This document shows, in pieces, positions 45,197 through 64,000 of a stretch of DNA of 64,000 bases. Both the position numbers and the translations under genes were made by a program. Below the pieces are notes generated by a model. That model was not told where the DNA came from. It made no database searches and saw only the letters and a program-made list of their open reading frames with translations. The DNA is from Earliella scabrosa. Taxonomy: Eukaryota; Basidiomycota; Agaricomycetes; Polyporales; Polyporaceae. The stretch covers positions 496,001-560,000 of the forward strand of contig JABYQQ010000024.1 of the NCBI GenBank assembly GCA_022605405.1, in the 5' to 3' direction. Every line of letters begins with the position of its first letter. Position 1 is the stretch's first letter.

Positions 45197-47604
45197 GACG
45201 CGTCCGTCAGTGTGCAGGTAAGGGGAGGACGGGTGTGAGAACGCTTTGCTGTACAGGCGACCCTAGATTGGCAGATATAAGAAAGCCCAGTCCACGGGAG
45301 ATGACCGGAAGAGCCGTGCATCAAGGTGGCTAGATATGTCAGACGTAAGGGACTTCATCAGCTGGAGATCCACCAAGCGCCGAGGACATGACAGCGGTGG
45401 GATATGGGGAGCTCTGTACGTCGTCCCAAACTCTAATTCATAGCGGAGAAGGAGGGGCATGCGGTATGATCGGTGATTCCAACATCAACGAGTAGAGGAA
45501 GTGTTGATAGGATGATGGGGGGCTTTGCTTGCGCCGCCTTCTCTCAATGTCCTTGAGCGGGAGAAGTCAAAGTAAGAGCTCCACTGAGACGGATATCTTT
45601 CGCACTGCATACATGACTGTGCGGACACCTGCCGTAATCCCGAGGCTTCGTGACTTGGGCGGACGCCGAGCATGATTGGGCAACAAGCATGTTTCCTGGG
45701 CGGCAGTTGGTACGAGACAGACTACTCTCGGTATCGTGCGTTGCAATGGAGGTGGTATGATTTGGATGTTACTGAAAGCTGTGGTACGCTACTAAGCTCT
45801 CTAGCTCCCGACTGGAGGGAGAGTGGTGAGGAGACGAGCACTCATGGAACTTGAAGGGAATCAACAGAGCCTAGACACACCTTGACAGATAGAAGCCGTC
45901 TCATCAGCGCCAGCGCGCGAAGTTATGCCTTCCTAGGGGTATATTGTTGGAAGTAAGTGAATCAGTGACTGAAAGCAAAGAACACAGTGGAATACCGCTG
46001 CGAGATCGGAACGATCCAAGGAGGGTGACATACCTATGACAAAGAACAATACTATATCTAGCAAGAATCCTGTGTGGGGAAGGAAGGGGAGGACTCGAAC
46101 GGCGGGCAACGAAACAAAAAGTGCACGGGACGTACTGACATCCAACGCGCCAGATATGTACTACAACTCGCCTCCGCTGTCCACGGATACTGTGCGTGAG
46201 GGCCGCTCGCTCGACGACGCGTTATCCGTCATTCGTTCGACGGGCGTCTAACAACAACGAATGTGCAAAGGCTTGATCTCTCCTCGGGGCTCGGAGAGAC
46301 AGTCAGTGTGCCTAGTCAGCTCCACTGTCGCTGTGCCACTCTGAGGATGTCGTCGGGCTTTCGGAACGGCAGGTGTGCGGGACAGGAAAGAGCGAGAAAG
46401 GGATGGAGGTGTCGTTCGACGACGTGCGCAGTTCGGCGAGAGTATTGAGTGCCAGAGTCGCTGTATGATTCGGGAGATCGCAGGGAGTTTGCAAGCTCAG
46501 CGCGGTCGCAGGTTGCAGAACGAGAGGGCGAGGGGGTCGCGTTCGCGCCGAGATTCGACGAGATGGTCGCGGTAGAGCTCGTTGCGCAGCTGAGCCGTAC
46601 GGAGAATGCTGTGCTGCGATGAGCGTCTAGGTATTCTACGTAACTACAGCCTTGGGGGGGACACTGGCAGTTATCAATTGAGACAATTACTACCATGGAG
46701 TCTGAACATGCCATGAAGATGACAACAGGGATATATTCATAGTCCAAAGTCAGTGGTGCAGGCTCAAGCCTCAAGGCTCAGTAAGTTGAAGTTCCCAGTT
46801 AGAGGTGTTTCCGGCACACCCCAGGCAGGGGGTCGGACCACCACTGAGACCCATTGACTGCACATGGGAATGTTGTCTCAAAGACCTCGTCCCCCTCGTA
46901 GCACCTCCCCCTGTAACCCAAACGCGGCATCCATGATGCATTCCGCTTTAATGATGATTTGTCCCCTTGTCGCCCGTAGTCACCGTGGAGCTCAGCTGGA
47001 TGAGCCGGCCGGACGTCCGCTGCGCTGACTGAGCCATCGTTTGCTTCGCAGACAAGACTTTGCACCTCCTCGAGGTCATCCCCGATGGTACTTCACCATG
47101 GACGTCGGGGAGAGACTTCCATGAAGACATCCGTCATCGGCTCAAAGGACGTCCTGCCTGTAAAGCTCTGCCTTCCAAGTTCCGCGGTAGTTCCAGACAG
47201 TGACATTGGACCCTAGAATGTCCAAGTCCGCTAGATGTCCTCCCCAGTTTTATGTTGCAGGACCGATGTCATCGTCTTGCTAATTCTTATGTCTTGCTTA
47301 CGTGCGCATGATCAGTATTCTGCGTATTCCGCTGTACAGCGCGATGCATAGATGCAGCAAGATGTGGTGATGACGCAAATATATTCGCATTACAACCGCA
47401 ATGCTTGATACAGATGGGGCATGAGTCGACAAGAAGACAGATTCATTAGTCGCGTGCGTAGTACTTTAGTCCGTAAGTGCGAGAGAGGGCAATCAGCTTA
47501 GAAACACTTGAGACAGCATCACAATGAACGTCATAATACAGAAGCCGAGAGAAAAACAGAAGGAAAGAGAAGGACCGACGAGACCGGGTGCAGGTACTAC
47601 TCGC
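45197..47604. other. Region upstream of DUF6534 copy 2, no recognised gene
   Basis: Only short frames are present. The first part repeats a little of the sequence upstream of copy 1. Around 46990-47170 a plus-strand frame looks weakly protein-like (includes LHLLEVIPDGTSPW) but is too short to assign and could be a relic exon. The right end is the 3' flank of the giant repeat gene. Confidence 0.35.
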
Positions 47605-50600
47605 CTACCGCATGCCATCCACGTCCTCCTGATCCGTGAGTCGACCGCTGTTTACCCCATGATTCTCCACGCGCTGCCTGGAAGTTGCGGGCGGCTGAGA
47701 GTTGCGCATAGCAGGCGGCGGAGCTGCAGCATTCGTCGTAGGCGCATGGAGGTTGTGGGGGTACGGTGGAGGCATGGGCTGATAATGTTGAGACGCATCG
47801 TGATGGAGCGGCGGAGGCGGATACATGGGAAACCTGTGGTGCATTCCTCCCGGATGGAATGCACCACTTGCTGCCGGGTAACCACCGCTCATTCCATACG
47901 GCGGAAGAGGCGGGAAGAACGGGAGACCTGGTGGAGGGTATCCGTATGGCATGCCGGAGTATGAACCATATCCCACCGGCGGTGCGTACGCTGTGTACGA
48001 CGGGCCGCTCGCCATTCCGTTGTTTCCTGTCAATACCAAGGATGGGTGAGGAGCTACTCGGAGACTCAGTAGACATGGCACTCACCGGGATGGCCAAGTT
48101 CGGCAGCCACAGGGATGTCCGAGCGATTATGCGCGCGCCCCTGCGGCGCCTGGCCAATCGTGGACGAATTGAGTTGAGGGACGGGAGCCGGCGTGGTCGG
48201 GACATGCGTGTGGGCGTGCAGGGCAGCGGGCGCGGGTACGGCATGGCGCGCATGTGCAGGAGCATCCGCTGGAGTGTCCGAAAGCACCACCTCAGATGGG
48301 ACCTCCGAGGGAATGTGCGAGGGAGCAGTCCCCGGAGCGTGCTGAGGGGCCTTGGATGAGACGTCGGAGGGGACGTGCGAGAGATCGGTTGGGGGGACGT
48401 GCGGCCGTTCCTGCGGTAGAGCATACGACGGGACGTCCGAAGGGACACGCGTTGGGACATGCGAGGGCACATGCGTCGGGACGTGCAAGGGGACCCGCAA
48501 CGCTTCGGATGGGACGTCCGGGTGGACGTGTGGCAGAGCGGTCTGAGGGGCACGCGACTGTGTCTGTGATGGGACGTCCGACGGGAGGTGCGAAGGGGCA
48601 TCCGACGGAGGGTCCGACACGATGTCCACATGCGTCGGGACATGCGAGGGGACCTCGGATGGGACGTCCGGGTGGATGTGTGGCAGAGCGGTCTGAGGGG
48701 CACGCGACTGTGTCTGTGATGGGACGTCCGACGGGAGGTGCGAAGGGGCATCCGACGGAGGGTCCGACACGATGTCCACATGCGTCGGGACATGCGAGGG
48801 GACCTCGGATGGGACGTCTGGGTGGACGTGTGGCGAAGCGGTCTGAGGGGCGCGCGATTGTGTCTGCGATGGGACGTCCGACGGGAGGTGCGAAGGGGCG
48901 TCCGACGAAAGGTCCGACAGGATGTCCGACGGGAGATCCGACGGGACGGCCGACGGGGGGTGCGACGGAAGGCTCAACGAGACCGGACGCTGGACCTCCG
49001 GCTGGACGTCAGCCTGCGGGACGTTCGACTGGACATGCGAACTGACGCCCCCCAGAACTTGACCGTTGCTGAGCCTGCGGAGCTTCGGAGGCGGTTCAAA
49101 CTGAGGAAGTTTGTAAAAGACAGGGCGAGCTTCGGAGGATGCAGACGTGCTCACCTTTGTCTTGGGACCCTCTGCGAGTGGGTGAGCGTCGGTCGTCGGA
49201 ACTACGCTGATGGCGCGGCCCTTCCCCTTATCGACCTTTCCAACCTGAAAAGCAGCCGATAATCCAGGCAGGTCGTTGTCGGAGTCCTCTACCTCCGTAA
49301 TCTTGCGCTTACGGGGCTTCGGCTGCGGCTTCGTCTTCGGGAGTGTCGAGGACGAAGGACCGGCGTTGGGTTGTCTGCTGGTGTCGGAGTCAAGCTCGTC
49401 GCTGCTGGGAAGGTCAATGACCTCGGCGCCGGGATCTGCGGCGGTCGTGGGCTGTTGCCTCACTGGCGTGTCTCTGATGGTAACGGGAACCCGCTTGATG
49501 AGCGAATCGTCCAGCCTTCGAGCGATTGGATTCGGGCGCAGCTGTGCCGTACCCTGAGTCGGACGCAGAGGACTTGGAGAGGGAGGAGCAGAAACGTTGT
49601 CCTCCACCTCTGAGCCCATCCCGTCTTGAGAGCAACCGTCATCGGCGGTGTCGCCGTCACCGTCCATGTCGCCATCCACGTCCATGTCGCTGCCGTTGTC
49701 GCTGTTGTTCGCAGAGGTGCTGGCGGTAATCTGCGCACCGGAAGAGCTTGCGCAAGCGTTGGAAGGGACCTGAGATTTTGCCTGTCCTCGGAGAGGAATC
49801 AGCGCAACCCGACCGTCTGCAAACTGGACCCGAGAGCCGGTCTGCGCCGACTCGGGCGGCGGGTCGTTTGCGAAGATTACAGGCACTCGGCCTTCCTGAA
49901 GCTCTGCATAGATGCGTCAATATCTGCACTGTAACATCGTCCAGGGCAGTACGATGCTCCTACCTCGTTTCGAACCCCCGTACCTCTTGATGCGCAGAGG
50001 ATTGGGGTTGTTACGGTTGAAGATTGCGTCCACCATTGTCTTCAGCGCAACGCCGCCCATGTCCTGCAGTCCTTTAGAACGTTTGCCGGTGCCGATGGGG
50101 TCAGGGAACGGGACGTTCCAAGGAAAGCCTTCACATTGAAGACCGCTGTTGGCCAGATTTGTCGTCATGTGTTTGAAGTGAAAGTTGTTTGTGTTCCATA
50201 GCGTCCTCGCGCAGTCGCCGTATGGCCCTGAGATAGGTCAGTCTAGCCCCGAAACTAAAGTCGTCAAGTCATAACTTACGGGCCATGTTCCGGAAGTGGT
50301 CGGCAATGAATCGCGCCCGATGAGCTGGCTTCGGAGGTGAAAGGTCCACCGGAAGCTGGTAATCTCGCACAGCCTCCGCAGGTACGACAGAGGCTCCCGG
50401 CTCAGGCATCCCAAGGTCAATCGTGGCGGTGTGGGCTATGGGCTTCGCATTAGGCACGGCCTTCCCCGGCGCCCTGGAAGCGAGCTGGGCGACACGCTCT
50501 CGGACTCCGTCCGGAGTGTCGGAGAACATCATGTCGCTGAGGGCCAGCGAGATCTTATGACTGTCGCGACAGAAGATATAGATTAGCACTTGCTCGTTCT

Positions 50601-53600
50601 ATCAACAGAGTAACACGCTCACTAGATGTGGGCCTTGAAGAAGCCTATGAGCGTGTCATCATTGGTGCGGAAACAGTCTTCGAAGAACTGGGACGCATTT
50701 GATTGGCACAAAATAGCGGCACGGAAATCGCTGAAGTCACGCACCGAGTGCGCGTCCGGCGTAACGAGAACTTTGGCCAGGCCGGCATCTGAATTCACCA
50801 CATTGCCGGCGATGAGCAAGACGCTCTCGAACCCGTACAGCGCTGCAAGTGACTTTGTCTAGTTGATGGCGACAGCAGCAGCTAGTTAGCGACTTGTCGC
50901 ACGGAAGTGAATGGACGCCACCTTACCAGTCGAGACAGTTCGCGCACACCTCGGTTGAACTCCTGCTTGCGGACACCGACAGTGGTTTTGCTTGCTCCGG
51001 CAATGGCTTGAAGAGAGCGATACTTCTCCAAGATTACAACTGCCTTCTTGCCGTATGTCGTCTTGAACGCGGCGTAGCACTTCCTCCGTAGCCGAACACC
51101 TGTAAACCCTGTCACGGCACAAGGAAGAGATACATGAGCCCCCATCTTAAGTGCGCAGCAATGGCGCTGAGCACTAGACAACTAACCTGATCGTTCTCCT
51201 GCAGGAGTCGAAGACAATTAGCACGAACAGGGTCACCCAGTGGAAACGACCGGCAACTCACGTAGCGGCACCCTCGCTAGCTCGTCCTGGTAGTGGTTCT
51301 TGAAGTATCGGCCGTAGGAGTTCCACATGTTTTTTTTCAGGTGCTTGCGTGTGCGCGTGGCGGTCCATTGGTCGAATACCTGGCCTGCTAGGAGACCAGT
51401 CTGCTTCGCGACACACTTGGCTATGGCGACAACTTCTTGGAAGGCCTCCTCAATGAGTGCGTGGGTGTCATTGGAGATACGCCCAGCAGGTCTCTTCTCA
51501 TCTTCCTCTTCGACTTCGTCCAGCCAATCGTCCTCGTCGCCCTCGCCCTCGCCCTCGCCCTCGCCCTCGCCCGCGCCCGCGCCCTCACTCTCGTCGCCGC
51601 CGCAGCCGTCCTCGTCGATACGGTCGTCAACATTCATGGTTCCGCCGTTGATGGTGTCGTCGAAGTCGGCAGGTCGGCTCACACTGCCGGACGGTTCCAT
51701 AGCCTAGTTACAAAGTGAACGTTAGCAAAGTATGTGACGCTTACAGAACGCGACAACATACCCTTTCTTTCCCTTTACCCACCAAGCGAGATTCCGGCGC
51801 AGAACCAGCATCAGTGACACGATCCGTCGCGGCAGCCAAGCTGAAGCTATCGTTGAGGAAAGGGTCGGAAAGGAGCGTATCATCTCGTCTCGCAGGGTTA
51901 ACATAACTGGGGCAGTAAAGAAATGCGTGAGCGGCGTGCGCGATGTACGAGACAGAGCTCAGCGCCGACATCAAAAGGTACGTACCGGGAAGTGTTGACT
52001 TGGCCAGAATCGGGGTTCCGGAGCCGGAGTCGGTCTGGAGGAAGGATGTCTGTAGGGACAGAGACGTCCGGAAGAGCCTCAACCTGAGCATGGGGCTGAT
52101 GCTCTGGGAGGACGGCGAAGCGGACGCTCTTTGGGACCTCCGTACGTACATGCGCCGGGACGTCCGTCGCGTGCTCTGCTTGGACATCCGGGCGGTTGTC
52201 CGGAGCGATGTTCCCCTTGAGGACGTCCTCTGATGCATGCGCCAAGACATCCCTTTGGCGATCCGACGAGGCGCGTTGCGGTATGTCCGGGCCTGTGTAA
52301 CCGGCGGGGAAATGCGTAGGGAGGTTGGATGGCGCGTCGGAGTCGCGCCGTCGGGTATCGGGCGCAGGCTGACCGAAACGGAGCTCAGACGGAGGGTAGC
52401 TCGAGGCACCTGCAATTGGCATGACACTTCCGGAATGAGGGTTGGAATACAGTCCCGGAGGCAGTACTTGTGATTGATCAAAGTTGTAAGAGTTGTACGG
52501 AAAGTCTGGGAACCGCCATTGCGGCTGATCTGCAAAGCTGGATTAGATAGATGTTTGTAAGACCTCCAATTACACGACGACCTACAGGAGTGCCAAGGGT
52601 GCTTTTGCTGCGAGTGGTGGTCGACATTCATTCCCTCCCAGCCATACGGAGCATTATTCACGTTAAGAGAACGCTGCCACCCTGCATCCTGAACGTACAT
52701 CGGAGCGTACTGCGGGATGCCCTGCGAAACGTCTGCAGGGACATCGGGAAGGCGCGGGGGAACATGTAACTGAGGACCTCCCTGAGAATCTGCCCGGGAC
52801 CCACCCGGGGCATCTACGGCGCTGTGCGTTGCGACGTCCATCAGGACGTCCGTTCCACCTTCAACGGCGACATCCGCCGGGACGTCGACTGTGACATCCA
52901 TCATGACATTTGTGAGGATGTCGTCCTCACGGCGGCCGGATGGCGGAGCGGCATTGGGAGCACTCGTGAGCATGTCTAGCGGGGCAGCCATGGGGGACTC
53001 GTCAATATGCATTGGAACATCCTCGCGGCGTGCCGGTACATTGGGAGGAGTCTGAGGGGAAACGTTCCAGCGTATGTTAGGGCGGATTTCGACATTTGTA
53101 GCAGTGCAAATGTCGTGCACGTACCTCAAAGGTCCTGTCACCAGCGCCATGGCTAACGCCTACTGCGGTAGCGCTGTCGAAGCGGATGTTGAGCGGAGCC
53201 TCAGTGCGGACAGGAACAACATCGGAGCCGACGGTAGGGCGCACGTCGGGAAGACTGTCAGAGTGAGCGCCAGCCTGAGGGCAGATGTCGGGGAGGTCGT
53301 GGGAGTGATCGTCGGAGGTACCAACCGGTCGAACATTCGCACCGGCGTCGAGGAACCTCTCGGGGAGACTGTTCAGGCCGCCGTTGGGGTGGGGGTCAGG
53401 ACGGTCATCGGAGGCGACGTTTCCCTGGACGGCAGGGCCGACATACATACGGATGTTGGGTATGCCCTCTGTGCGGACGCCTGGTAGGATGTCGGAACCG
53501 GCCTCAGGGCAGATGTCGAGCTGAACGTTCGGGGAGACGTCGGGGAGGACGTCGGGGAGGACGTCCGGGAGGTTCGGGCGGATGTCATCGCGTACGTCGG

Positions 53601-54808
53601 TGCGGACGTTGGCGTGGACGTCGGTGCGGATGTGGGCGGGGACGTCGGTGCGGACGTCGGTGCGGACGTCGGCGGGGACGTCGGTGCGGAGGTCGGCGGG
53701 GACGTCGGTGCGGACGTTGGCGGGGACGTTGGCGCGGATGTCATCGCGTACGTCGGTGCGGACGTTGGCGTGGACGTCGGTGCGGATGTGGGCGGGGACG
53801 TCGGTGCGGACGTCGGTGCGGAGGTCGGCGGGGACGTTGGCGGGGACGTTGGCGGGGACGTCGGCGCGGACGTCGGCGGGGACGTCGGTGCGGATGTGGG
53901 CGGGGACGTTGGCGCGGACGTCGGCGCGGACGTCAGTGCGGACGTTGGCGGGGACGTTGGCACGGACGTCGGGACGGACGTTGGCATGGACGTCGGTGCG
54001 GATGTGGGCGGGGACGTCGGTGCGGACGTCGGTGCGGACGTCGGCGGGGACGTCGGTGCGGACGTTGGCGGGGACGTTGGCACGGACGTCGGCGCGGATG
54101 TGAGCGGGGACGTCGGTGCGGACGTCGGCGCGGAGGTCGGCGGGGACGTCGGTGCGGACGTTGGCGGGGACGTCGGTGCGGATGTGGGCGGGGACGTCGG
54201 CGCGGACGTCGGTGCGGAAGTGGGCGGGGACGTCGGTGCGGACGTCGGTGTGGAGGTCGGCGCGGACGTCGGTGCGGACGTTGGCGGGGACGTTGGCGGG
54301 GACGTGGTCGCTGACGGAAGACGGGGGCGGGATGTCGCCGCGAACATCCACGTTCATTTTCTCGGAAACACTCTGCGGGCTGACAGGCGGGTATGTTGCT
54401 GAATGCTCCTGCGTGTGCTGAAAGTTGCTATGTGTGGCCTGGCCGCTCACTGCAAGCTGGGTAGCACCAGACACTCCATTGCCGGGGATCTCACGGGACG
54501 ACGTCTCAGGTGCATCTCCAGAGCGTGCGGCCGTCCCGTTTCCAACCCAGACCGCAGAGTGGGACGATACAGAACTATAATCGCTCGTCATGCCCTGGAC
54601 GCCAGGCATGCAAGCGGAGACAGAGTCTGATTCGGGGTTCTGGGCGAATGATTTTGCTCCATGTTCGGACCCTGTGGATGATGGGAAAGGTCACCGCCGT
54701 CAGAAGTATGGCAGGTCAACAGGAGCACTACGTACGGCGGGATGCACCTGTTCCTCCTTCATGACGCGTCGCAATCTGACGTTGCCGAGGGTTGGCACTG
54801 CGGGTCAT
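47605..54808 (-). CDS. Giant repeat-bearing orphan protein
   Basis: Multi-exon gene of roughly 2,100 codons. Junctions checked in phase: 54808-54748, 54671-53125, 53051-52586, 52529-51986, 51906-51762, 51703-51262, then several exons to 47605. It starts MTRSANPRQRQ. Exon 2 carries a long degenerate DVRTDVPA-type tetrapeptide array. After an acidic GEGEGEG tract comes the most protein-like part: RTRKHLKKNMWNSYGRYF, YAAFKTTYGKKAVVILEKY, ESVLLIAGNVVNSDAGLAKV, FFEDCFRTNDDTLIGFFKAH and SDMMFSDTPDGVRERVAQL (about 51450-50400). A second repeat zone (DVPSQTQSRAPQTALPHVHP-type, 150-bp units) and a Pro/Tyr/Gly-rich tail follow. I recognise the folded core only as a lineage-specific agaricomycete family of unknown function. 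KGKGR- and PRKRKI-like basic patches suggest a nuclear protein. It might be two genes, but the intron at 51704-51761 joins both halves in frame. Confidence 0.62.
48511..48935. repeat. 150-bp tandem repeat inside the giant gene
   Basis: Three units start at 48511, 48661 and 48811. The first two are almost identical and the third slightly diverged and incomplete. Each unit is 50 codons on the minus strand, so copy-number change keeps the reading frame. Within a unit there is an older PSDVPS/PSHVP tetrapeptide periodicity that extends beyond the array on both sides. Confidence 0.9.
51536..51590. repeat. Hexanucleotide GCCCTC microsatellite
   Basis: A run of GCCCTC and GCCCGC hexamers lies in an exon of the giant gene. 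On the minus strand it encodes alternating Gly and Glu just before an acidic tract, so it changes the length of an acidic linker without breaking the frame. Confidence 0.88.
53575..54310. repeat. 12-bp degenerate coding minisatellite
   Basis: About 60 tandem copies of a 12-bp unit, consensus near GACGTCGGTGCG with GACGTTGGCGGG variants. Sub-blocks repeat as longer near-identical segments (for example around 53582-53700 and 53725-53830), so segmental duplication was laid over unit duplication. On the minus strand it encodes tetrapeptides of the DVRT/DVPA/NVRA type. Because the unit has no stop in several frames, the array is open in up to four frames; only the minus frame of the surrounding gene is considered real. 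Confidence 0.92.
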
Positions 54809-55074
54809 GCTAGAGGTCTTACTGAGACCCTCTATGAAGCAGAACGCTCGTGAGCTACGAACGTACGGGTCCTGGAGAAGATCACAACATACGTGTAGTA
54901 TCCGAGGTTTTATCGCCGCTCGTGGCAGCCGTCCCATGGATGACTGCGGCGTGAGTGAGGAATTGTGTGGCGTCACAGCGAAGTATCTCATACCGTTTGC
55001 TCTGGCGGACGCTCGGGTTTGACGGTTCGAATCGAGCGGCCGTGAACTAGCTGCTAAGCCAGTGGGTGGAGCTT

Positions 55075-55957
55075 TTACTGCAGGACGGCATTAGTCGCTG
55101 TCTGCACCTGACTATCGGTGAGATCCATACCTAGCTTTTTCTCGCCTCGTGGGAGCCTAGGACGGGCGGTGGCCGAATCTGAATCGATGTCAAACGTAAC
55201 GGACGAGGCCGTTGACGAGGTATCTTGGATTGCCGAAGTAGTCAGACATGCAGCAGGCAGCCTTGAACACGGTTCATACCTGTGAGTGCTTGATTCTCCG
55301 GCTGAGCCGCCGCGGAAGCTTTCTGCAAGGCCGGGGATGAAGCGGCTGTGGAGAGAGACGGATAAGATCTCCGATGTGTAACGCCAATGGGAGAACATAC
55401 CGCGGTCGGTCTTGACCGTTTTTCGGGCACGCTTCGCACGAGCTGTGGCGGGGGGTTCATCGACGACAGCGGAAGGCAGTTGCGCAGCTTCTCCGGCTAC
55501 AAGGAGTGCATTGATATGAGTGCACTTCTCGGGATCATAGGGTCGTATGGTAGGAAGACTTACCCGCCACCACAAGCGTCGCTCGCTCACTTGCAGCGTC
55601 TTTCATAAACTTCGCTGCATTGGCCGTCACAACCACCCGGCGACCGGAGCGGCGCGCTGTCGGAGTGAGAGGAGGGGGTATTGTGATGCTGTCTAGCGTA
55701 GACGACTGAATCGGGGTCCCTCCACGCTCAGATGGCAAGGTTGTAGGCAGAGCGTTGGTCATCGCGGCTGCCGACGGAGTAGCGGACGCGTCAGTAGACT
55801 CGCCGACCATTGCGCTGGACGACAAGCCCGCCATCGCGTTTTGGGGTGCGCTTGTGGAGGCTGCAGTCGACGCATCGGTCAACGACGCGTTCAACGACGC
55901 GTCAGCCGTTGACGCGTCAGCCGTCGACGCGTTTTTGGACGCCGCAAGACGCGTCAT
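55075..55957 (-). CDS. Small low-complexity orphan protein
   Basis: Predicted protein of about 240 residues in four exons: 55957-55564, 55496-55401, a short exon near 55327-55260, and a last exon near 55230-55075. The N-terminus is an Ala/Ser/Thr/Asp repeat (ASTADASTADASLN), followed by a basic SGRRVVVTANAAKFMKDAA patch, an ARAKRARKTVKTDR basic stretch that could be a nuclear signal, and a Ser/Asp-rich tail ending TATNAVLQ. I do not recognise a family. It lies 266 bp upstream of the giant gene on the same strand and could be its 5' part in some transcript, but the stop at 55075 argues for a separate gene. An upstream exon is possible. Confidence 0.5.
55840..55940. repeat. GACGCGT-rich coding minisatellite
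   Basis: GACGCGT occurs about six times within roughly 100 bp, as irregular 12-15-bp repeats. On the minus strand they encode the Ala-Ser-Thr-Asp run of the small orphan protein. The units have mutated only lightly. Confidence 0.75.
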
Positions 55958-56500
55958 CCGAGGGGGCTGGAGGCAGTCAGCAATCAGCTACGGCAGTACA
56001 CAATGCATGGATGCTTACCATGGACATAGGAGCGGACAGGCGGCGAGGATGTCAAGGTCCAGTACAAGACTGTAGAGAGGTGGTGGTGGTGGTGGTGGTG
56101 GTGAACGAAGAAGAGAGGGCGAGGGAGAGTTAGCGAATGGAGCGCAAGCGTCACTTCTAGAGGCGTATGCATTGCCTGACAATGTCCTATCTGGAGAAGT
56201 GCAGCCGGGAGTCGCGCAGGTTGACATACCATGGATTTCCGGCCGCTAGGACTGCGGCGGGAGCTCCGCTCATGGAAGAACACACTCCCTAGGTGCCCGT
56301 TGGATGTCCGCAAGGATGTCCCCTGTACCGCGTACGGCAACACCTGAGTAAATCGGGTTAAGTGAGGGTGTCCTTCCGTCAAACTTGCGCCACAAGAAAG
56401 ACGTTGCGTCGCCATTATATCCGACGGGTTGTCGGTCTCGCGTACAGTCCCCTTGAACACAAGTTCTACATGGCAGCAGTCAAGCAAATGTACATGATGT
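55958..56500. other. Spacer with a GGT trinucleotide run
   Basis: Between the small orphan gene and the PIGERG-repeat gene, both on the minus strand. It holds a perfect GGT run at about 56079-56103. Minus-strand frames near 55984-56562 show no features. It should contain the promoter of the small orphan gene. Confidence 0.45.
56079..56103. repeat. GGT trinucleotide microsatellite
   Basis: About eight tandem GGT units in noncoding sequence; likely polymorphic. Confidence 0.9.
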
Positions 56501-57616
56501 TCAAATCTCATCGTCAGCGTGGTCTTCCCAAAGAGCCCAGAGGTTCGTACCCCGAGACCCAAGGCGACGGTTGTAGGCGGCCCAATACTCCGAGCGCCCT
56601 GAGATTCGCACCTCCGGGTTCTCTAGCAGATACTGGGATGCGCCCTGAAGGGAAGCCCGGTCATTCTCCAGCCAGGACAGGGCCTCTCGGCAGCGCTCGA
56701 GCTCTCTCTCCTCGGACGTCCGGGGGCTGAGAAGGTCAAAGTCCTCCGAGGACGCCTCGCACCCGTCGTCCCCACCGAGAAAGGCAGGATTCGGAATCGG
56801 ACTAGGTGAGCGGTCGCTGTTCAGCTGGGAAAAGTAGTGATGGATGGATACTATGTCTGGGGAAACCGGGGGAGCCTGCGCCGGCTGGTTACTGGTCTGC
56901 GAGGTTGCCTCCAAACCTAGGCATGAGGTCCAGGCGGGTCCATCGGCCTCGGTGTAATCGCCCTGCTCGCCCACCGGAGTACGCGGAGAAGGTGAGGTAG
57001 AGTCGAGCCGAAACCGTCCTCCCTCTCCGACAGTCGGGGATGGGGCAGCGCTGGGGGCAGGGAAGGGAAGAAGCTCGCCATTTTCTGCAAGCTGTTCGAC
57101 CGTAAATGGGTCGGTGCATTCAAGGGTTCCTCGTTCGCCAATAGGTCCCACGGAGCCATCGCGTTCAGTGGTTCCTTGCTCACCAATCGGCCCGAAGGAG
57201 TCGGTGCTCTCGGGGGTTCCGCGTTCACCTATCGGCCCAACAGAATCGGAGCTCCCGACCTCACCAATGGGTTGAGATGGCGACGGACTGCGGTCGCCCT
57301 CCTCGGGAGAGCTCGAGCAGAGCGAGCCGTTGCCGAGCGCAAGTCGGAAGTCGCGCAGTCGTGCCTCCGAATTTTGGGCCACCCGCTCATCTTGCATCGG
57401 CGGTAGCTGCTCGCATTCACCGATGGGAGCCTTGGGCGACATACACCTCGGCGACGGTGAGCACATGCGAGCGCGCCTAGAGGATTTCGGAGCTGGATAA
57501 AGGCCGCGGCACATTGTGTCAGTCCATGCGTTTATTAATGGAGCCGGTACAGTTAACTCACCAGGCCCAGGAGACTGAGACTTTGCCCTGCTGCGTTTGC
57601 GACCGCGTAAGTGCAT
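56501..57616 (-). CDS. Orphan protein with PIGERG-type repeats
   Basis: Predicted 348-residue protein in two exons (57616-57562 and 57492-56501, 1,047 nt in frame). The first exon is basic (MHLRGRKRSRAKSQSPGP), resembling a nuclear localisation signal. The middle has at least five PIGE[RQV]G repeats separated by acidic Ser/Thr-rich spacers (such as VGPIGERGTPEST), then Pro/Ser-rich sequence with SPSP motifs. The C-terminus is compact and charged (ELERCREALSWLENDRASLQ, SEYWAAYNRRLGSRGTNLWA) and probably helical. No known domain is recognised. The start codons of this gene and the Zn2Cys6-like gene face away from each other 214 bp apart, which suggests shared regulation. Confidence 0.65.
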   Translation of the reverse strand: MHLRGRKRSRAKSQSPGPGELTVPAPLINAWTDTMCRGLYPAPKSSRRARMCSPSPRCMSPKAPIGECEQLPPMQDERVAQNSEARLRDFRLALGNGSLCSSSPEEGDRSPSPSQPIGEVGSSDSVGPIGERGTPESTDSFGPIGEQGTTERDGSVGPIGERGTLECTDPFTVEQLAENGELLPFPAPSAAPSPTVGEGGRFRLDSTSPSPRTPVGEQGDYTEADGPAWTSCLGLEATSQTSNQPAQAPPVSPDIVSIHHYFSQLNSDRSPSPIPNPAFLGGDDGCEASSEDFDLLSPRTSEERELERCREALSWLENDRASLQGASQYLLENPEVRISGRSEYWAAYNRRLGSRGTNLWALWEDHADDEI

Positions 57617-57830
57617 GGGATATATCTAACACAAAATATAAGCATCATCAATACATGACAAACAAATGTTTGTGGACGCACGTCGTGGGATGGGTGCAAA
57701 AGACGGATCAACCACTTGGTGGTGGACTTGAGCAAGGTTGACCTGACACCTAAGCGCCCTTCCTCGCTTCTTCGGGCGCATCTTGTTCGGTCTCCTCGGC
57801 TGTGCACGCAAGTGTTCTGTCCCGTCTACC
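57617..57830. promoter_or_regulatory. Short divergent promoter, PIGERG gene / Zn2Cys6-like gene
   Basis: Only 214 bp separate the two divergent start codons, so a bidirectional promoter is likely. An AT-rich stretch near 57620-57665 is the only compositional feature. Confidence 0.5.
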
Positions 57831-60355
57831 ATGTCCCGACGACTCCCTAACCCGACGGCTGAGCAAATTCAACGTGCTTGTGACTTGAGTAGCCAGCTCT
57901 ACTATGCTTGGGTAGAACGCCCGCCGACTTCATCCCCGGTGCGCGGCAGCTGGGATCGTAATTTCACCAAGACGTGTAAAGACCTCATAAAAGTCATTGG
58001 CAACGCCCACTTCACAACCCTCCCTGCATTTGTTATCGGATGCATCTGGGAGTTCAACAATCATTGCCGTAGCAAGACCGAGATCGTGGACGCGGAAGCT
58101 ATCCGCCTGGCGTCGACTGACAACCACCCTGCGTTCGACCGTTCGTCAGCTCGGTCCTTATGCTACACACCCTCGGAAGAGGGTCCCGTAGTGCTACAGG
58201 AGAAGGTCAAGCCGTGCGATGTGGGGCCGGATGGTATCCGTACGTATCACTCTTGTTGCATGCTTGCTGGGGCCCATTCCCACTTCGAGACAGCGCGTAC
58301 AGGGGCGACCGCTACCCAACACTCCGAACAACCAATACACAACCCCCCGCTACCGTCTACGGAAGATTATGCGCCAGTCAATCCCCAGACGCGCAAGCGG
58401 GCTGCTTCTTCCTCGCTGCCCGACGGCGGAGAAGACTACCGAGCGGACCCAGGGAGAATGGATGGGGTTGGGGAGGACGAGCTTTGCGAGCAGGACGTTC
58501 CTGAGACCATCGTGTTTGTGAGTCATATTCATAGCTCCTGCAGCCCGGCATCCCTTTACATAGCTCTACAGAAGACCGGTTCTGGATGCGACAGCTGCTG
58601 CAAGGTCGACGCTGTTTGCGAAGTGGACACCTTCTCCGGGACTGTATGCAAGCACTGCAAGCATATCAAAGTCAAGTGTAGCTTCATGCAAATCAACCCG
58701 AAAATCCGCCGGTGCTTCCTTGTTTGGCGGTTCTGGAAGCTCGCCGCCAACGGGGACGATTCCCCATCCCTCATCCCGCCCCAATACACGTCGGAGTCCG
58801 TCGCGCTGCCGGCATGGTGGCACGCGCTTTTCTCGGCGAAGGGCCAGAGCGCTCGCAAGCGCGCCCGCACCTCAGAGGTACCCGCCGATGTGCGCCGGTC
58901 TCGCAGTGCTTCTCGAGCGCAGTCCATCGCTCCCAGCGGAGGGCCGTCTGCAAGCACCGCGCATGCGAATGCACGGTCCGCCCCCATCGAGACTCGGGCG
59001 AAATCAAAGCGCCGCGCTTCTGTTGCCTCTGAGGTCTTACGAAGTCCGACTGGGGCGGCCTCAATGGCTGGGAGAGCCAACGTCTCGGAATTGGACAGTA
59101 CTGCTGCAGGCGTCTCGAACACAGCGTTCTCTAACCCTCCGACCCTGCGTGTCACTCGCGCGAGTGTCGTACGTTCGGCCCCGGAACCTTCGTGCTCTGG
59201 GACTGGCGAGTCTGCGATGAATCCACCCCGTGCTGCGCGTAAGGGGCCAAGCCTGATTCTTCCTCCACCACTCTCAGGTACGCTCGTCCTTTGCGTCGCG
59301 TTGCTATCCTTGCATCATAACTTAGTGATATTGCAGGCTCATGGCGCGATCTTCCAACGATCGAACGAAGGCACCCTGCTCCACAAATCATCACCGGCAA
59401 CGCCGCTTTCTCTGCGCGAGACGACGACGCACCGCGAGCCGATAGCGCACCGCGAGATGACGACGCACCGCCGCGAGCACCGCCGCGAGACGACGACACA
59501 CCTGCGCGAGACGACGACGCACCCGCGCGAGACGACGACGCACCCGCGCGAGACGACGACGCACCCGCGCGAGACGACGACGCACCCGCGCGAGACGGCG
59601 ACTCACCCGCGCGAGACGGCGACGCACAGCGAGACGACGACGGCGCTCAAAACAGCCTTCGTTCGCTTCACGAGGAGCTGCATGCAATTGCCGGAAACCA
59701 GCAGGTCATTCTTGATCGGCTTGATCAAATTCCAGGCGAAGCGTTGTCTGCTGTGCAAGCCTTGCTCGCCAACATCCACCAGCAAGTTTCAAATGACCTC
59801 CGCGAACCTCTCATCGCCCTCGCTGTCTCGCTGGTTTCCACAGAGATGACTTCGGAAGCTCGCGATATGCTGCTTCGCTTGATCATTGGCTCTGTACGTC
59901 CCCCACACGACTCTCTCCCCAGCGATCAAAGTGGTTCTCGAGACGATCCTAATGTCACCTCCGACACGTCCGGGCGGTCATGTCTCTCCGCGGCGATCAA
60001 CCAGCTCCATGACCGCCTCAGTAGGGTTGAGGGCGGTGTTACCATGGGTGCGGATGTCACCGCAGGTGGGTCCGGCCCTCAGGCCATGTTGCAAGTGGAT
60101 GCCGCGGATATCCATCCTCATGGCGCCGCACCAGACGCCAACGTAGAGGCGCTTCAAAGTGTTGTCCGCCGGCTAGAAGCCCGCATCGAAAAGCTGGAGA
60201 CCACGCGAGAGTCCGAAATGAGTAGTATGCAGATGTATCTGGATGGACTAGGGCTTGACGTAGATACACTCCGCCGTCTTGCTATGTTGTTGTCAGCTCC
60301 GCGACAGCAGCAGTTCCCGCTCCCAGTATGGTCTTGGGGAGCCAGTAGCCAGTAG
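57831..60355 (+). CDS. Zn2Cys6-like, coiled-coil protein with ARDDDAP repeats
   Basis: Predicted protein of roughly 770 residues starting MSRRLPNPTAEQIQRACDLS. Introns are seen after GPDGI (about 58240), after PETIVF (58515 to about 58570) and at about 59278-59338. At 58586-58679 six cysteines follow C-x2-C-x6-C-x9-C-x2-C-x6-C, which fits the fungal Zn(II)2Cys6 binuclear cluster spacing; the loop between Cys 2 and 3 has only one Lys, so DNA contact is uncertain. A basic Ser/Arg/Ala-rich linker follows. After the third intron a run of ARDDDAP heptads (21-bp repeats) gives an acidic tract, then an amphipathic C-terminal coiled coil (NQLHDRLSRVEGG; LQSVVRRLEARIEKLETTRE). A transcription or chromatin adaptor role is an inference. 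The next gene starts 196 bp downstream on the same strand. Confidence 0.72.
59489..59632. repeat. 21-bp coding tandem repeat (ARDDDAP)
   Basis: Six to seven copies of a 21-bp unit, the central ones nearly identical, each encoding seven residues in the spliced frame. The unspliced frame of the exon before it is also open through the array, which can mislead gene models. Confidence 0.88.
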
Positions 60356-60551
60356 GCTCTTATTGGAACTCTGCGACTCTACGACTCCGACCGATAGACT
60401 TTGTTAGGTAGCAGTTATACTAGTGTTCATAGCGGTGAAGTCGTTACAATTCCCGGCGCCTGACATTTGATTGCCGGAACGTTCCAAGTGTTAAACGCGC
60501 CATTGTATCCCTCACATCTCCCGCCACCTGTCCACGTCACTGCTCTCAGAC
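60356..60551. promoter_or_regulatory. Promoter of the TET/JBP-like gene
   Basis: A 196-bp spacer between two genes on the same strand. It must contain the end of the upstream transcript and the start of the next. No clear TATA box or terminator is recognised. Confidence 0.4.
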
Positions 60552-61861
60552 ATGCCGGAGTCGCTCCCTACAAGTGAAAAGACCGAGCGTCGAGCAATGA
60601 CCGCATCCTACATTGTCGCCCTCTACCGCCACTTTCTAGCTCAGGACAGGGGTCCTCCTCAATCGTCGTCCTCATGTCTGCCGCCGGCCCCTACACATAT
60701 ATCGGCGAACTTGGCCAACGACTGCCGTAGCGTAGCTCGGGTGCTTGCAAATGCCGTGCAAAATCAGTGTACGTATCCGCATGGTCTTACAGTAGTCAAT
60801 CTAATGGCTGTGTCCAGTTATTGTGACCTGGGACGCGGTCGAATTTGCAGCGCACATCAAGCAGACGACCATCGGGACTGAGAAATATGAGAACAACCTT
60901 CTCCGCCGGTTTCCTCCTCTCATTCCCCTCAAAGAGGTTGTTAACCGGAGTACTCCCTTACCTGTCATCGAGGACCCCTGCGTCTTTGTAGACAGCAAGG
61001 AGCGACTGATCGGGTGGGCGCTACATTCTGTTCTTCCGGAGGGTCACCAGGTGCGCTCGACAACGATACTACAGCTCATCTGCTGACCGAATAGCTAGTT
61101 GAACATTAGAAGGGCAACGGCTGAGCTAGAGAGTCGCCTGCGACGCACTCACGGCGATGGGGATGACCGGAAATGGCGATCTGCCGAGGGATATTTCTCA
61201 GAGAGCCGAAATCTGAAGTCCGGCCAGGTCTTCATAGGTCCGGCATGGTTTGCTCAAGGACACCCGGTGCGTGCTTTGCAGTCCATGCGATTGCACAATC
61301 TGAGCACGCCGATAGCCTCCAAAGTTCAGTCCGATCGTTCTCGCCGAAACAAAATCCGTGGAAGCGTCTATGTGGATGGCAGAGCTTGAAGAGACAGGGG
61401 CTCTGCTCGACGGCATCCTTGCCGTTACGCACCCCGATCTCTACGACGCTGGCCGGAAGCTCATGAATAGCCTTTATGAACAGGGCTCCGCTGGTCGCGA
61501 ACTGGTCGACGCGTGGCCATCTGTCTATCATGCAGTGCACGTTATCGTCAATCGGGCCACCGTCTATCATCGGGATACCAATGGGTTGCCAGGGTGGTAT
61601 GATATGTTGGTGAGCGTGGGGGACTATGGGGAAAAGGGGGTCTTGTCTTTGAAAAGCCTGGGTGCCAGCATTCCGTATGATTCAGGCACGGTCGTTCTCA
61701 TCTGCTCCCGCATCATCTCGCATGGCGCGCCTGTGGTCCCGCCGGACCGCATCTGCTATGCTTGGTTGATGAAGGACGACGTACTTGCATACTATGACGT
61801 GGGTGATCCCGGCTGGTCCACTCTCATGGGTGTTGGGCTATCTGAGAACGCCGCGATGTAG
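60552..61861 (+). CDS. 2OG-Fe(II) dioxygenase, TET/JBP-like
   Basis: Predicted 384-residue protein in four exons (60552-60768, 60818-61050, 61099-61266, 61325-61861; 1,155 nt, all phases consistent). The last exon holds a double-stranded beta-helix dioxygenase core: HRD (His288, Asp290) in VNRATVYHRDTNGLPGWYD, then a Gly-rich turn and DSGTVVLICSRIISHGAP with the distal His339, and Arg348 (PDRICYAW) at the position that binds 2-oxoglutarate. The HxD...H...R spacing and the wording around it resemble the JBP1/TET oxygenase family expanded in mushroom-forming fungi, whose studied members oxidise 5-methylcytosine. The N-terminal 200 residues have no domain I can name; they include a Trp/Phe-rich stretch (FIVTWDAVEFAAHIKQ). 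All metal ligands are present, so catalysis is plausible. A different 2OG oxygenase subfamily is the main alternative. Confidence 0.72.
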
Positions 61862-62009
61862 ACACGGATCCTTGTTCCGCTTTTAAACGTTGTATTCAGC
61901 TTTTGCAGGTGTATTTATCCCGTAAATGTCTGACTTAGGGCCGTCGGATTGATCGTTGAGCTTGACGATTGAGCGACATGCACCGCCGACGCGCTTCACA
62001 GAGCGTGTG
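61862..62009. other. 3' flank of the dioxygenase gene
   Basis: A short stretch with a T-rich part (61880-61920), a likely 3' UTR, running directly into the first degenerate satellite unit. No gene is seen. Confidence 0.5.
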
Positions 62010-64000
62010 CCCAGGAACGACACGCAACGACTGCCGTGGACCCGGAAGCTGTCTCACAGGACGTCCTAGTAGCGTAAACTCTAAATTATAAGATTTATGG
62101 AGTGGAGGAAGCGGAGGGCGGGTCCTCCGGGAGGAGGGAGCGGTGGTCCGGCGTTCTCCATCGACGACCAAGACCGTGTGTCCAGGAACGACACGCAACG
62201 ACTGCCGTGGACCCGGACGCCGCCTCAAAGACCGCCGTAGTGAAAAAGGCTTTACTTCATAGTATTCACAGAGTCTACGCAGCGGAGGACGGGTCCTCCG
62301 GGAGGAGGGAGCGGTGGTCCGGCGTTCTCCATCGACGACCAAGACCGTGTGCCCAGGAACGACACGCAACGACTGCCGTGGAGCCGGACGCCGTCTCAAA
62401 GGCCGCCGTAGTAGAAAGGACTTTACTTCATAGTATTCACAGAGTCTACGCAGCGGAGGACGGGTCCTCCGGGAGGAGGGAGCGGTGGTCCGGCGTTCTC
62501 CATCGACGACCAAGACCGTGCGCCCAGGAACGACACGCAACGACTGCCGTGAACCCAGAAGCGGCCCACAGCAGCGTTCTTGTGCTGCTGGCTTGACATG
62601 CTGGTAGAAATAGCAGAGACCGAGCGCTCCGGAGGTTGGAGCGGTGGTCCGGCGTTCTCCATCGACGACCAAGACCGTGTGCCCAGGAACGACACGCAAC
62701 GACTGCCGTGGACCCGGACGCCGCCTCAAAAACCGCCGTAGTGAAAAAGGCTTTACTTCATAGTATTCACAGAGTCTACGCAGCGGAGGACGGGTCCTCC
62801 GGGAGGAGGGAGCGGTGGTCCGGCGTTCTCCATCGACGACCAAGACCGTGCGCCCAGGAACGACACGCAACGACTGCCGTGAGCCCAAAAGCGGCCCACA
62901 GCAGCGTTCCTGTGCTGCTGGCTTGACATGCCGGCAGAAATAGCAGAGACCGTGCGTCCCGGAGGTTGGAGCGGTGGTCCGGCGTTCTCCATCGACGACC
63001 AAGACCGTGTGCCCAGGAACGACATGCAGCGACTGCCGTGGACCCGGACGCCGTCTCAAAGGCCGCCGTAGTAAAAAGGACTTTACTTCATAGTATTCAC
63101 AGAGTCTACGCAGCGGAGGACGGGTCCTCCGGGAGGAGGGAGCGGTGGTCCGGCGTTCTCCATCGACGACCAAGACCGTGCGCCCAGGAACGACACGCAA
63201 CGACTGCCGTGAACCCAGAAGCGGCCCACAGCAGCGTTCTTGTGCTGCTGGCTTGACATGCTGGTAGAAATAGCAGAGACCGAGCGCTCCGGAGGTTGGA
63301 GCGGTGGTCCGGCGTTCTCCATCGACGACCAAGACCGTGTGCCCAGGAACGACACGCAACGACTGCCGTGGACCCGGACGCCGCCTCAAAAACCGCCGTA
63401 GTGAAAAAGGCTTTACTTCATAGTATTCACAGAGTCTACGCAGCGGAGGACGGGTCCTCCGGGAGGAGGGAGCGGTGGTCCGGCGTTCTCCATCGACGAC
63501 CAAGACCGTGCGCCCAGGAACGACACGCAACGACTGCCGTGAGCCCAAAAGCGGCCCACAGCAGCGTTCCTGTGCTGCTGGCTTGACATGCCGGCAGAAA
63601 TAGCAGAGACCCTGCGTCCCGGAGGTTGGAGCGGTGGTCCGGCGTTCTCCATCGACGACCAAGACCGTGTGCCCAGGAACGACACGCAGCGACTGCCGTG
63701 GACCCGGACGCCGTCTCAAAGGCCGCCGTAGTAAAAAGGACTTTACTTCATAGTATTCACAGAGTCTACGCAGCGGAGGACGGGTCCTCCGGGAGGAGGG
63801 AGCGGTGGTCCGGCGTTCTCCATCGACGACCAAGACCGTGCGCCCAGGAACGACACGCAGCGACTGCCGTGGACCCGGACGCCGTCTCAAAGGCCGCCGT
63901 AGTAGAAAGGACTTTACTTCATAGTATTCACAGAGTCTACGCAGCGGAGGACGGGTCCTCCGGGAGGAGGGAGCGGTGGTCCGGCGTTCTCCATCGACGA
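62010..64000. repeat. Higher-order satellite of alternating 171- and 159-bp units
   Basis: The core AGCGGTGGTCCGGCGTTCTC recurs at 62139, 62310, 62481, 62640, 62811, 62970, 63141, 63300, 63471, 63630, 63801 and 63972. The spacings are 171, 171, 159, 171, 159, 171, 159, 171, 159, 171, 171. The long unit contains the CGGGTCCTCCGGGAGGAGGG block; the short one carries a CAGCAGCGTT...GCTGGCTTGACATG segment instead. In the middle of the array the pair forms a 330-bp repeat, and two slightly different 330-bp versions alternate, giving a 660-bp period. The first unit, before 62139, is degenerate. The array continues past the window edge. All units are multiples of three, so the minus strand is open over 61935-63890. 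Confidence 0.95.

Follow-up and report, generated by a model that had tools for sequence, protein, structure and literature searches.

A TET/JBP dioxygenase gene beside a satellite array in Earliella scabrosa is part of a KDZ-group DNA transposon

The window analysed here, a stretch of 64,000 nucleotides from the polypore fungus Earliella scabrosa (C24:496001-560000, C24 being the contig that holds it; C1, C4, C16 and similar labels denote other contigs of the same genome), carries a TET/JBP dioxygenase gene that lies between a Zn2Cys6-like gene and a tandem array. Searches of the 51.67-Mb genome (48 contigs) placed these features within a mobile element that runs past the window end, and positions beyond 64000 are given as window equivalents. 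The features are as follows.

46809..46816, no strand: left 8-bp target-site duplication (TSD), TTCCGGCA, identical at 8/8 positions to its twin at window-equivalent 70799-70806
46817..64000, plus strand: KDZ transposon with TET, of which the left 17.2 kb lie in the window, recognized by termini, TSD and gene content
46817..46829, plus strand: left terminus, CACCCCAGGCAGG, an imperfect 13-bp inverted repeat (10/13) of the right end (CACCTAGGGCAGG)
49806..51484 (limits approximate), minus strand: conserved multi-exon gene, G1, found by tblastx to the C16 and C17 copies
53529..54316, no strand: internal 12/24/60-bp tandem array; several copies have arrays of similar period in their left part
55502..57510 (limits approximate), minus strand: weakly conserved possible gene, G2, from comparison of copies and dN/dS
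57831..60355, plus strand: Zn2Cys6-like accessory gene, G3 (models of 800-807 aa), with homologs upstream of other TET genes
60552..61861, plus strand: TET/JBP dioxygenase gene, exons 60552-60768, 60818-61050, 61099-61266 and 61325-61861, 384-aa model
61358..61753 (C24:557358-557753), plus strand: Tet_JBP catalytic core, 53.7 bits in the genome profile search
62000..64047 (64000 being the window end), no strand: 330-bp (171+159) higher-order tandem array inside the transposon, in the spacer between TET and G5
64260 to about 65040 (window-equivalent, beyond the window end), plus strand: small gene, G5
about 65.1-70.5 kb (window-equivalent), minus strand: Ulp1-like domain and KDZ transposase with CxC1-like segment, pointing towards TET

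Consistent with the family assignment made in an earlier note from the sequence alone, the exon-4 open reading frame matched the Pfam Tet_JBP profile with 53.8 bits (E 1.7e-14; cut-off used, 34.9 bits), and the HxD motif (H288, D290), distal histidine (H339) and 2OG-binding arginine (R348) named there were found exactly in the four-exon, 384-aa reading frame. The four-exon form fits the span and residue numbering of that note and is a predicted model, its exact splicing unproven; six splice models (384-392 aa) are possible, all with an identical core. A PDB search returned CcTet of Coprinopsis as the nearest solved structure and sole credible match (3.7e-17; next unrelated chain, 0.021). The catalytic core aligned with CcTet (7vpn, 7w5p, 8jkk) over query residues 12-151, including the catalytic triad and the positions of CcTet G331/D337, opposite which G293/D299 are placed; these two CcTet residues have been tied to 6mA and 5mC recognition (Kojima 2025 citing CcTet work, PMC12730594). 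All six catalytic or substrate residues (triad, Arg and the G/D pair) were retained in 17/17 sequences from 14 genomic places. AlphaFold models of G3 and TET were poor (mean pLDDT 41.8 and 40.7, respectively). Among public gene models, P0002 fuses TET with G5 and P0008 fuses G3 with TET, both probably annotation errors, and a Ganoderma TET (P0003) carries the name 'Sigma-70 region 2'.

Genome-wide, 39 Tet_JBP matches were detected, 29 of them above the cut-off. The link of TET/JBP genes to KDZ transposons that the earlier note drew holds in this genome: 28 of the 39 matches have a KDZ match no more than 15 kb away, where even scatter would give about 1.8, and the same is true of 23 of the 29 above the cut-off; these counts include near-identical duplicate loci and are not all independent (129 KDZ matches were listed). 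The ten matches below the cut-off, such as C16:514458-514715, are divergent TET-like frames, nine of which begin at profile position 69 or later, and they possibly represent a second TET type.

Upstream of TET, G3 carries the cysteine pattern C-x2-C-x6-C-x9-C-x2-C-x6-C at about 58578-58745, a spacing typical of fungal Zn2Cys6 clusters. Since the Zn_clus profile did not match, only a Zn2Cys6 likeness is claimed for this gene, and the earlier description of a Zn2Cys6-like neighbour stands as far as the cysteine spacing; no Pfam family reached E<=0.1 over the first 483 aa, and none matched G3 above a cut-off. The six cysteines are retained in proteins P0005-P0007, the P0008 model skips half or more of them, and the E. 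scabrosa protein P0004 is 97% identical to the G3 model of the window. Downstream, gene models of G5 were obtained for eight copies, and the seven outside the window share 38-44% identity with that of the window; G5 gave no Pfam match and no credible PDB match. A search for G3 and G5 in other species returned E. scabrosa proteins alone (5 and 2, respectively), a result that the database and word search may limit. At E<=0.001, G1 was detected at 12 loci, 11 within paired-end copies of the group and the 12th to the left of the C1 copy. It gave no Pfam or PDB match above cut-off (best Pfam hit of one copy, NPA with 20.9 bits versus a cut-off of 27; best PDB hit, 0.17), and no HMG-box similarity was found in either; the HMG-domain accessory protein of KDZ elements was reportedly described as divergent by Iyer 2014.

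The element that encloses these genes spans 23,982 bp (C24:542817-566798), with its right end at window-equivalent 70798, 6.8 kb past the window, and with termini CACCCCAGGCAGG on the left and CCTGCCCTAGGTG on the right. When copies are aligned, similarity breaks off abruptly at CACCCCAGGCAGG (left end) and at CCTGCC[CT]TAGGTG (right end). A genome search with the end pattern returned 41 matches (reversed control, 18), of which 13 of other spelling were dropped as chance, leaving 28 canonical ends, three of them without partner (C1:4076629, C1:5240496 and C23:537746). The remaining 25, together with the C17 right end taken from alignment, were matched by eye into 13 opposing pairs, each on one contig. 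A perfect 8-bp TSD flanked 12 of these 13 paired-end copies, the exception being C34; with C24, C17 and C16 excluded, whose TSDs were already known at the time the ends were defined, the independent score was 9/10. Uninterrupted TET-bearing copies (n = 6) measured 21.1-24.0 kb and the C11 copy 29.5 kb, and the pairs on C14 (57.7 kb), C6 (56.2 kb) and C26 (42.4 kb) span other insertions.

Besides that of the window, ten further TET-bearing loci belong to the same group (n = 11). Comparison of the window plus 20 kb downstream with eight other loci revealed an order and strand common to all nine: G1 (minus), G2 (minus, weak), G3 (plus), TET (plus), G5 (plus) and a transposase with Ulp1-like segment (minus). 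For G1 and the left end the direct comparison covered the C16 and C17 copies, the C1 copy is broken up by inserts, and the C14 transposase match ends at window-equivalent 68481. Given the paired ends and the comparison with eight other copies, a single transposon contains TET, the Zn2Cys6-like gene, the KDZ gene and the array. The copy closest to the window element, C1:5174428-5240508, is split by a 19-kb insert (5-bp overlap, window-equivalent 64816-64820); further inserts are probable on both sides. Three shorter copies were also found. A 17-kb copy at C23:237655-254653, with a perfect TSD, contains G1 and partial KDZ matches and no TET, G3 or G5 match. Derivatives at C6:2206405-2212246 (5.8 kb) and C9:811072-816215 (5.1 kb) share the ends of the group, are flanked by perfect 8-bp TSDs and show no TET, KDZ, G3 or G5 match inside. 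These gene-less derivatives suggest that the ends are enough for movement in trans.

The earlier statement that no KDZ transposase is visible is correct within the window, which stops at C24:560000; a KDZ match lies 3.8 kb further on, on the minus strand at C24:563767-564469 (1.3e-27). The same region contains a Peptidase_C48 match (6.9e-7), the Ulp1-like segment; genome-wide there were 20 such matches, eight of which sit at 8 of the 11 TET loci of the group, and the segment is retained in C14 and C34 at 54-56% identity. A CxC1 match accompanies the transposase at 10 of the 11 loci (C16 showed none), nine above the cut-off of 26.9 bits, and that of the window element slightly below it (C24:565591-565770, 25.8 bits, E 4.1e-4). 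No CxC2 match was found at the transposases of these 11 loci. As the CxC1 profile scores equally high at the CxC2 sites of six other loci (26.5-37.2 bits, versus 25.8-35.7 in the group), the group is, by these profile scores, marked by the absence of CxC2 and not by a strong CxC1.

TET-KDZ transposons are reportedly known since the founding paper of Iyer et al. 2014; the pairing itself is thus not new, and what we describe is a multi-gene version with an unusual transposase type. TET-positive Kyakuja transposons have been described in Agaricomycetes and, as far as that source reports, are the only TET-positive elements of Polyporales (Kojima 2025, PMC12730594). Like Kyakuja, the window element combines AG-type TET features (the equivalents of CcTet G331/D337) with a KDZ-family transposase and 5'-CA..TG-3' ends. 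For Kyakuja-1/2_LB the duplications are given as 7 bp and the ends as CA..TG, inverted repeats being absent (Kojima 2025, PMC12730594). By this description the window element departs from them on two counts: its TSD has 8 bp, and its termini form an imperfect inverted repeat of 13 bp. It further differs from TET-positive Kyakuja in its Ulp1-like segment, in G1, G3 and G5, and in its length of 21-24 kb in six uninterrupted copies; the main text of that paper does not contain 'tandem repeat', 'zinc finger', 'HMG' or 'accessory' (PMC12730594). The active KDZ1-3 of Cryptococcus neoformans resemble the window element in the KDZ core and, for KDZ1, in the 8-bp TSD (4-8 bp in KDZ2/3), and have CxC1, for which the match of the window element falls just below the cut-off, but are about 9-11 kb long with 139-241-bp inverted repeats and no TET gene described (PMC12810828). 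In Pleurotus, all intact KDZ elements were reported to carry CxC2 (PMC7641404). The literature searched yielded no paper on a KDZ or Zisupton transposase with Ulp1. With the present element, the transposons that carry AG-like TET genes come to include a KDZ lineage that bears Ulp1 and makes 8-bp duplications.

Relatives of G3, TET and G5 are shared with six loci of the same genome that carry a CxC2-type KDZ gene (C4, C9, C19, C11:0.64 Mb, C24:27 kb and C24:91 kb), which differ from the group of the window in their CxC2 match and in having the KDZ gene between TET and G5, on the same strand as both. At the one such locus read for comparison (C4:1048756-1062874), the window element was compared by seven segments from its transposase and Ulp1 parts, none of which matched at E<=1, and a looser tblastx gave at best 0.02, outside the C4 transposase, whereas TET exon 4 was 48% identical (6e-46), TET exon 2 42% and G5 exon 1 43%. 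Within the group (three copies), KDZ segments were 77-90% identical versus 51-69% for TET, with the N-terminal and Ulp1 segments at 54-85%. As the transposases do not match while TET, G3 and G5 do, and as the transposase is the more alike of the two within the group, these pairwise comparisons with the C4 locus suggest that the G3-TET-G5 module was transferred between KDZ lineages, whose transposase cores seem to have diverged long before the TET genes. An earlier survey saw no exchange of AG-type TET between superfamilies (Kojima 2025, PMC12730594). Our comparison suggests a new, Ulp1-bearing KDZ lineage with 8-bp duplications that has the same G3-TET-G5 module as CxC2-type elements, and a three-gene module common to two transposase types would help explain the spread of demethylases among fungal transposons. 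Further CxC2-type TET-KDZ loci at C26:346190-351619, C35:40560-45989 and C37:3905-9334 have equal TET, KDZ and CxC2 scores and are probably recent copies; the first sits within the span of the window-group copy C26:336203-378640.

Nei-Gojobori counts between the window element and the C1 copy gave low dN/dS for most genes: 0.08 for TET exon 4 and 0.15 for exon 2. Three KDZ segments ranged over 0.04-0.10 and a transposase N-terminal segment reached 0.21; Ulp1 gave 0.13, G3 0.09 and G5 0.11. The value for G2 was about 0.4-0.6 (0.38 versus C1), the part of the C1 copy that aligns with TET exon 2 contains one stop, and comparisons with C21 and C16 had mostly saturated synonymous sites. These low ratios between copies point to purifying selection, under which the genes of the element appear to have stayed functional in the lineages that moved. 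CpG observed/expected was 1.09 in the element (1.03 without arrays) and not depleted, 1.08 in a nested insert and slightly lower in the gene-less derivatives (0.89 and 0.97); CpG depletion was discarded as a trace of methylation, there being no usable contrast.

Overall, we consider it highly probable that the TET gene is a component of a complete KDZ-group DNA transposon, the satellite not being its cause, and likely that the product of the gene would demethylate the element that carries it. The enzyme would oxidise 5-methylcytosine on the DNA of its own element, and perhaps also act on 6mA as CcTet does; oxidation would then keep the element transcribed and mobile despite host methylation, offsetting silencing, and G3, with its DNA-binding-type cysteine spacing, may direct TET. 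A 5mC substrate is plausible because the genome contains C5-methyltransferase-type genes (four PF00145 matches in three places). We infer this anti-silencing role from sequence comparison, and the defined ends, long copies and TET-less derivatives would make self-demethylation by a transposon directly testable in one fungus. A tentative extension, possible at most, is that G3-TET-G5 constitutes an anti-silencing cassette moved between long-separated KDZ lineages, in which G3 would target, G5 would assist and any KDZ transposase could serve as motor.

The TET gene could also be passive cargo or act genome-wide, its many copies maintaining oxidised cytosines on behalf of the host, with the transposon serving only as vehicle, which would agree with 39 Tet_JBP matches in a single genome and with the oxidised 5mC that the discussion of Kojima 2025 (PMC12730594) also places on retrotransposons in Coprinopsis and Laccaria. 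We regard this as rather unlikely, however, given the low dN/dS among element-borne TET copies, the proximity of 28 of the 39 matches to KDZ and the preserved linkage of TET to G3 and G5. The close linkage of TET to the transposase might alternatively reflect an aid to transposition chemistry, for instance on the ends or the donor DNA, and not to transcription; this seems improbable. The TET-less C6 and C9 derivatives, with their shared ends and perfect TSDs, suggest no more than that TET is dispensable in cis. That TET is a host gene near repeats, encoding a chromatin enzyme that silenced satellite DNA recruited or captured, as the earlier note proposed and as its position beside a 2-kb tandem array might imply, is scarcely credible, because the array is a local expansion inside the element: it lies with TET, G3 and KDZ between one pair of TSDs, in a gene order repeated at other loci, its DNA is nearly confined to the window locus (8 of 13 genomic matches, the other five short), and in six of nine copies the TET-G5 spacer contains no array that scores above 50. 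What had appeared to be an isolated epigenetic gene by a satellite becomes a mobile element with defined limits, whose function can be tested.

The higher-order satellite noted beside the gene is itself real, and it is a local tandem expansion within one element lineage. Scores above 400 in the TET-G5 spacer were reached in three of the nine copies compared (C24, C1 and C21), that of C21 being built of different units, and the satellite was accordingly rejected as a general part of the element. Outside the window locus, three short matches to the array DNA lie behind TET of the C1 copy, and C11 and C8 hold one short match apiece. On the minus strand, a frame of 687 aa runs open across the satellite; a coding function was likewise rejected, as pN/pS among seven units of 171 bp and four of 159 bp showed no consistent minimum in the open frame (0.59 and 0.36, versus 0.42-1.10 in other frames). 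The element contains a further tandem array, of 150-bp period, at 48429-48972, which like that at 53529-54316 is open in long minus-strand frames; several copies show arrays of similar period in their left part. Repeats of 12-bp periodicity that resemble the array at 53.5 kb also occur inside the C6 and C9 derivatives.
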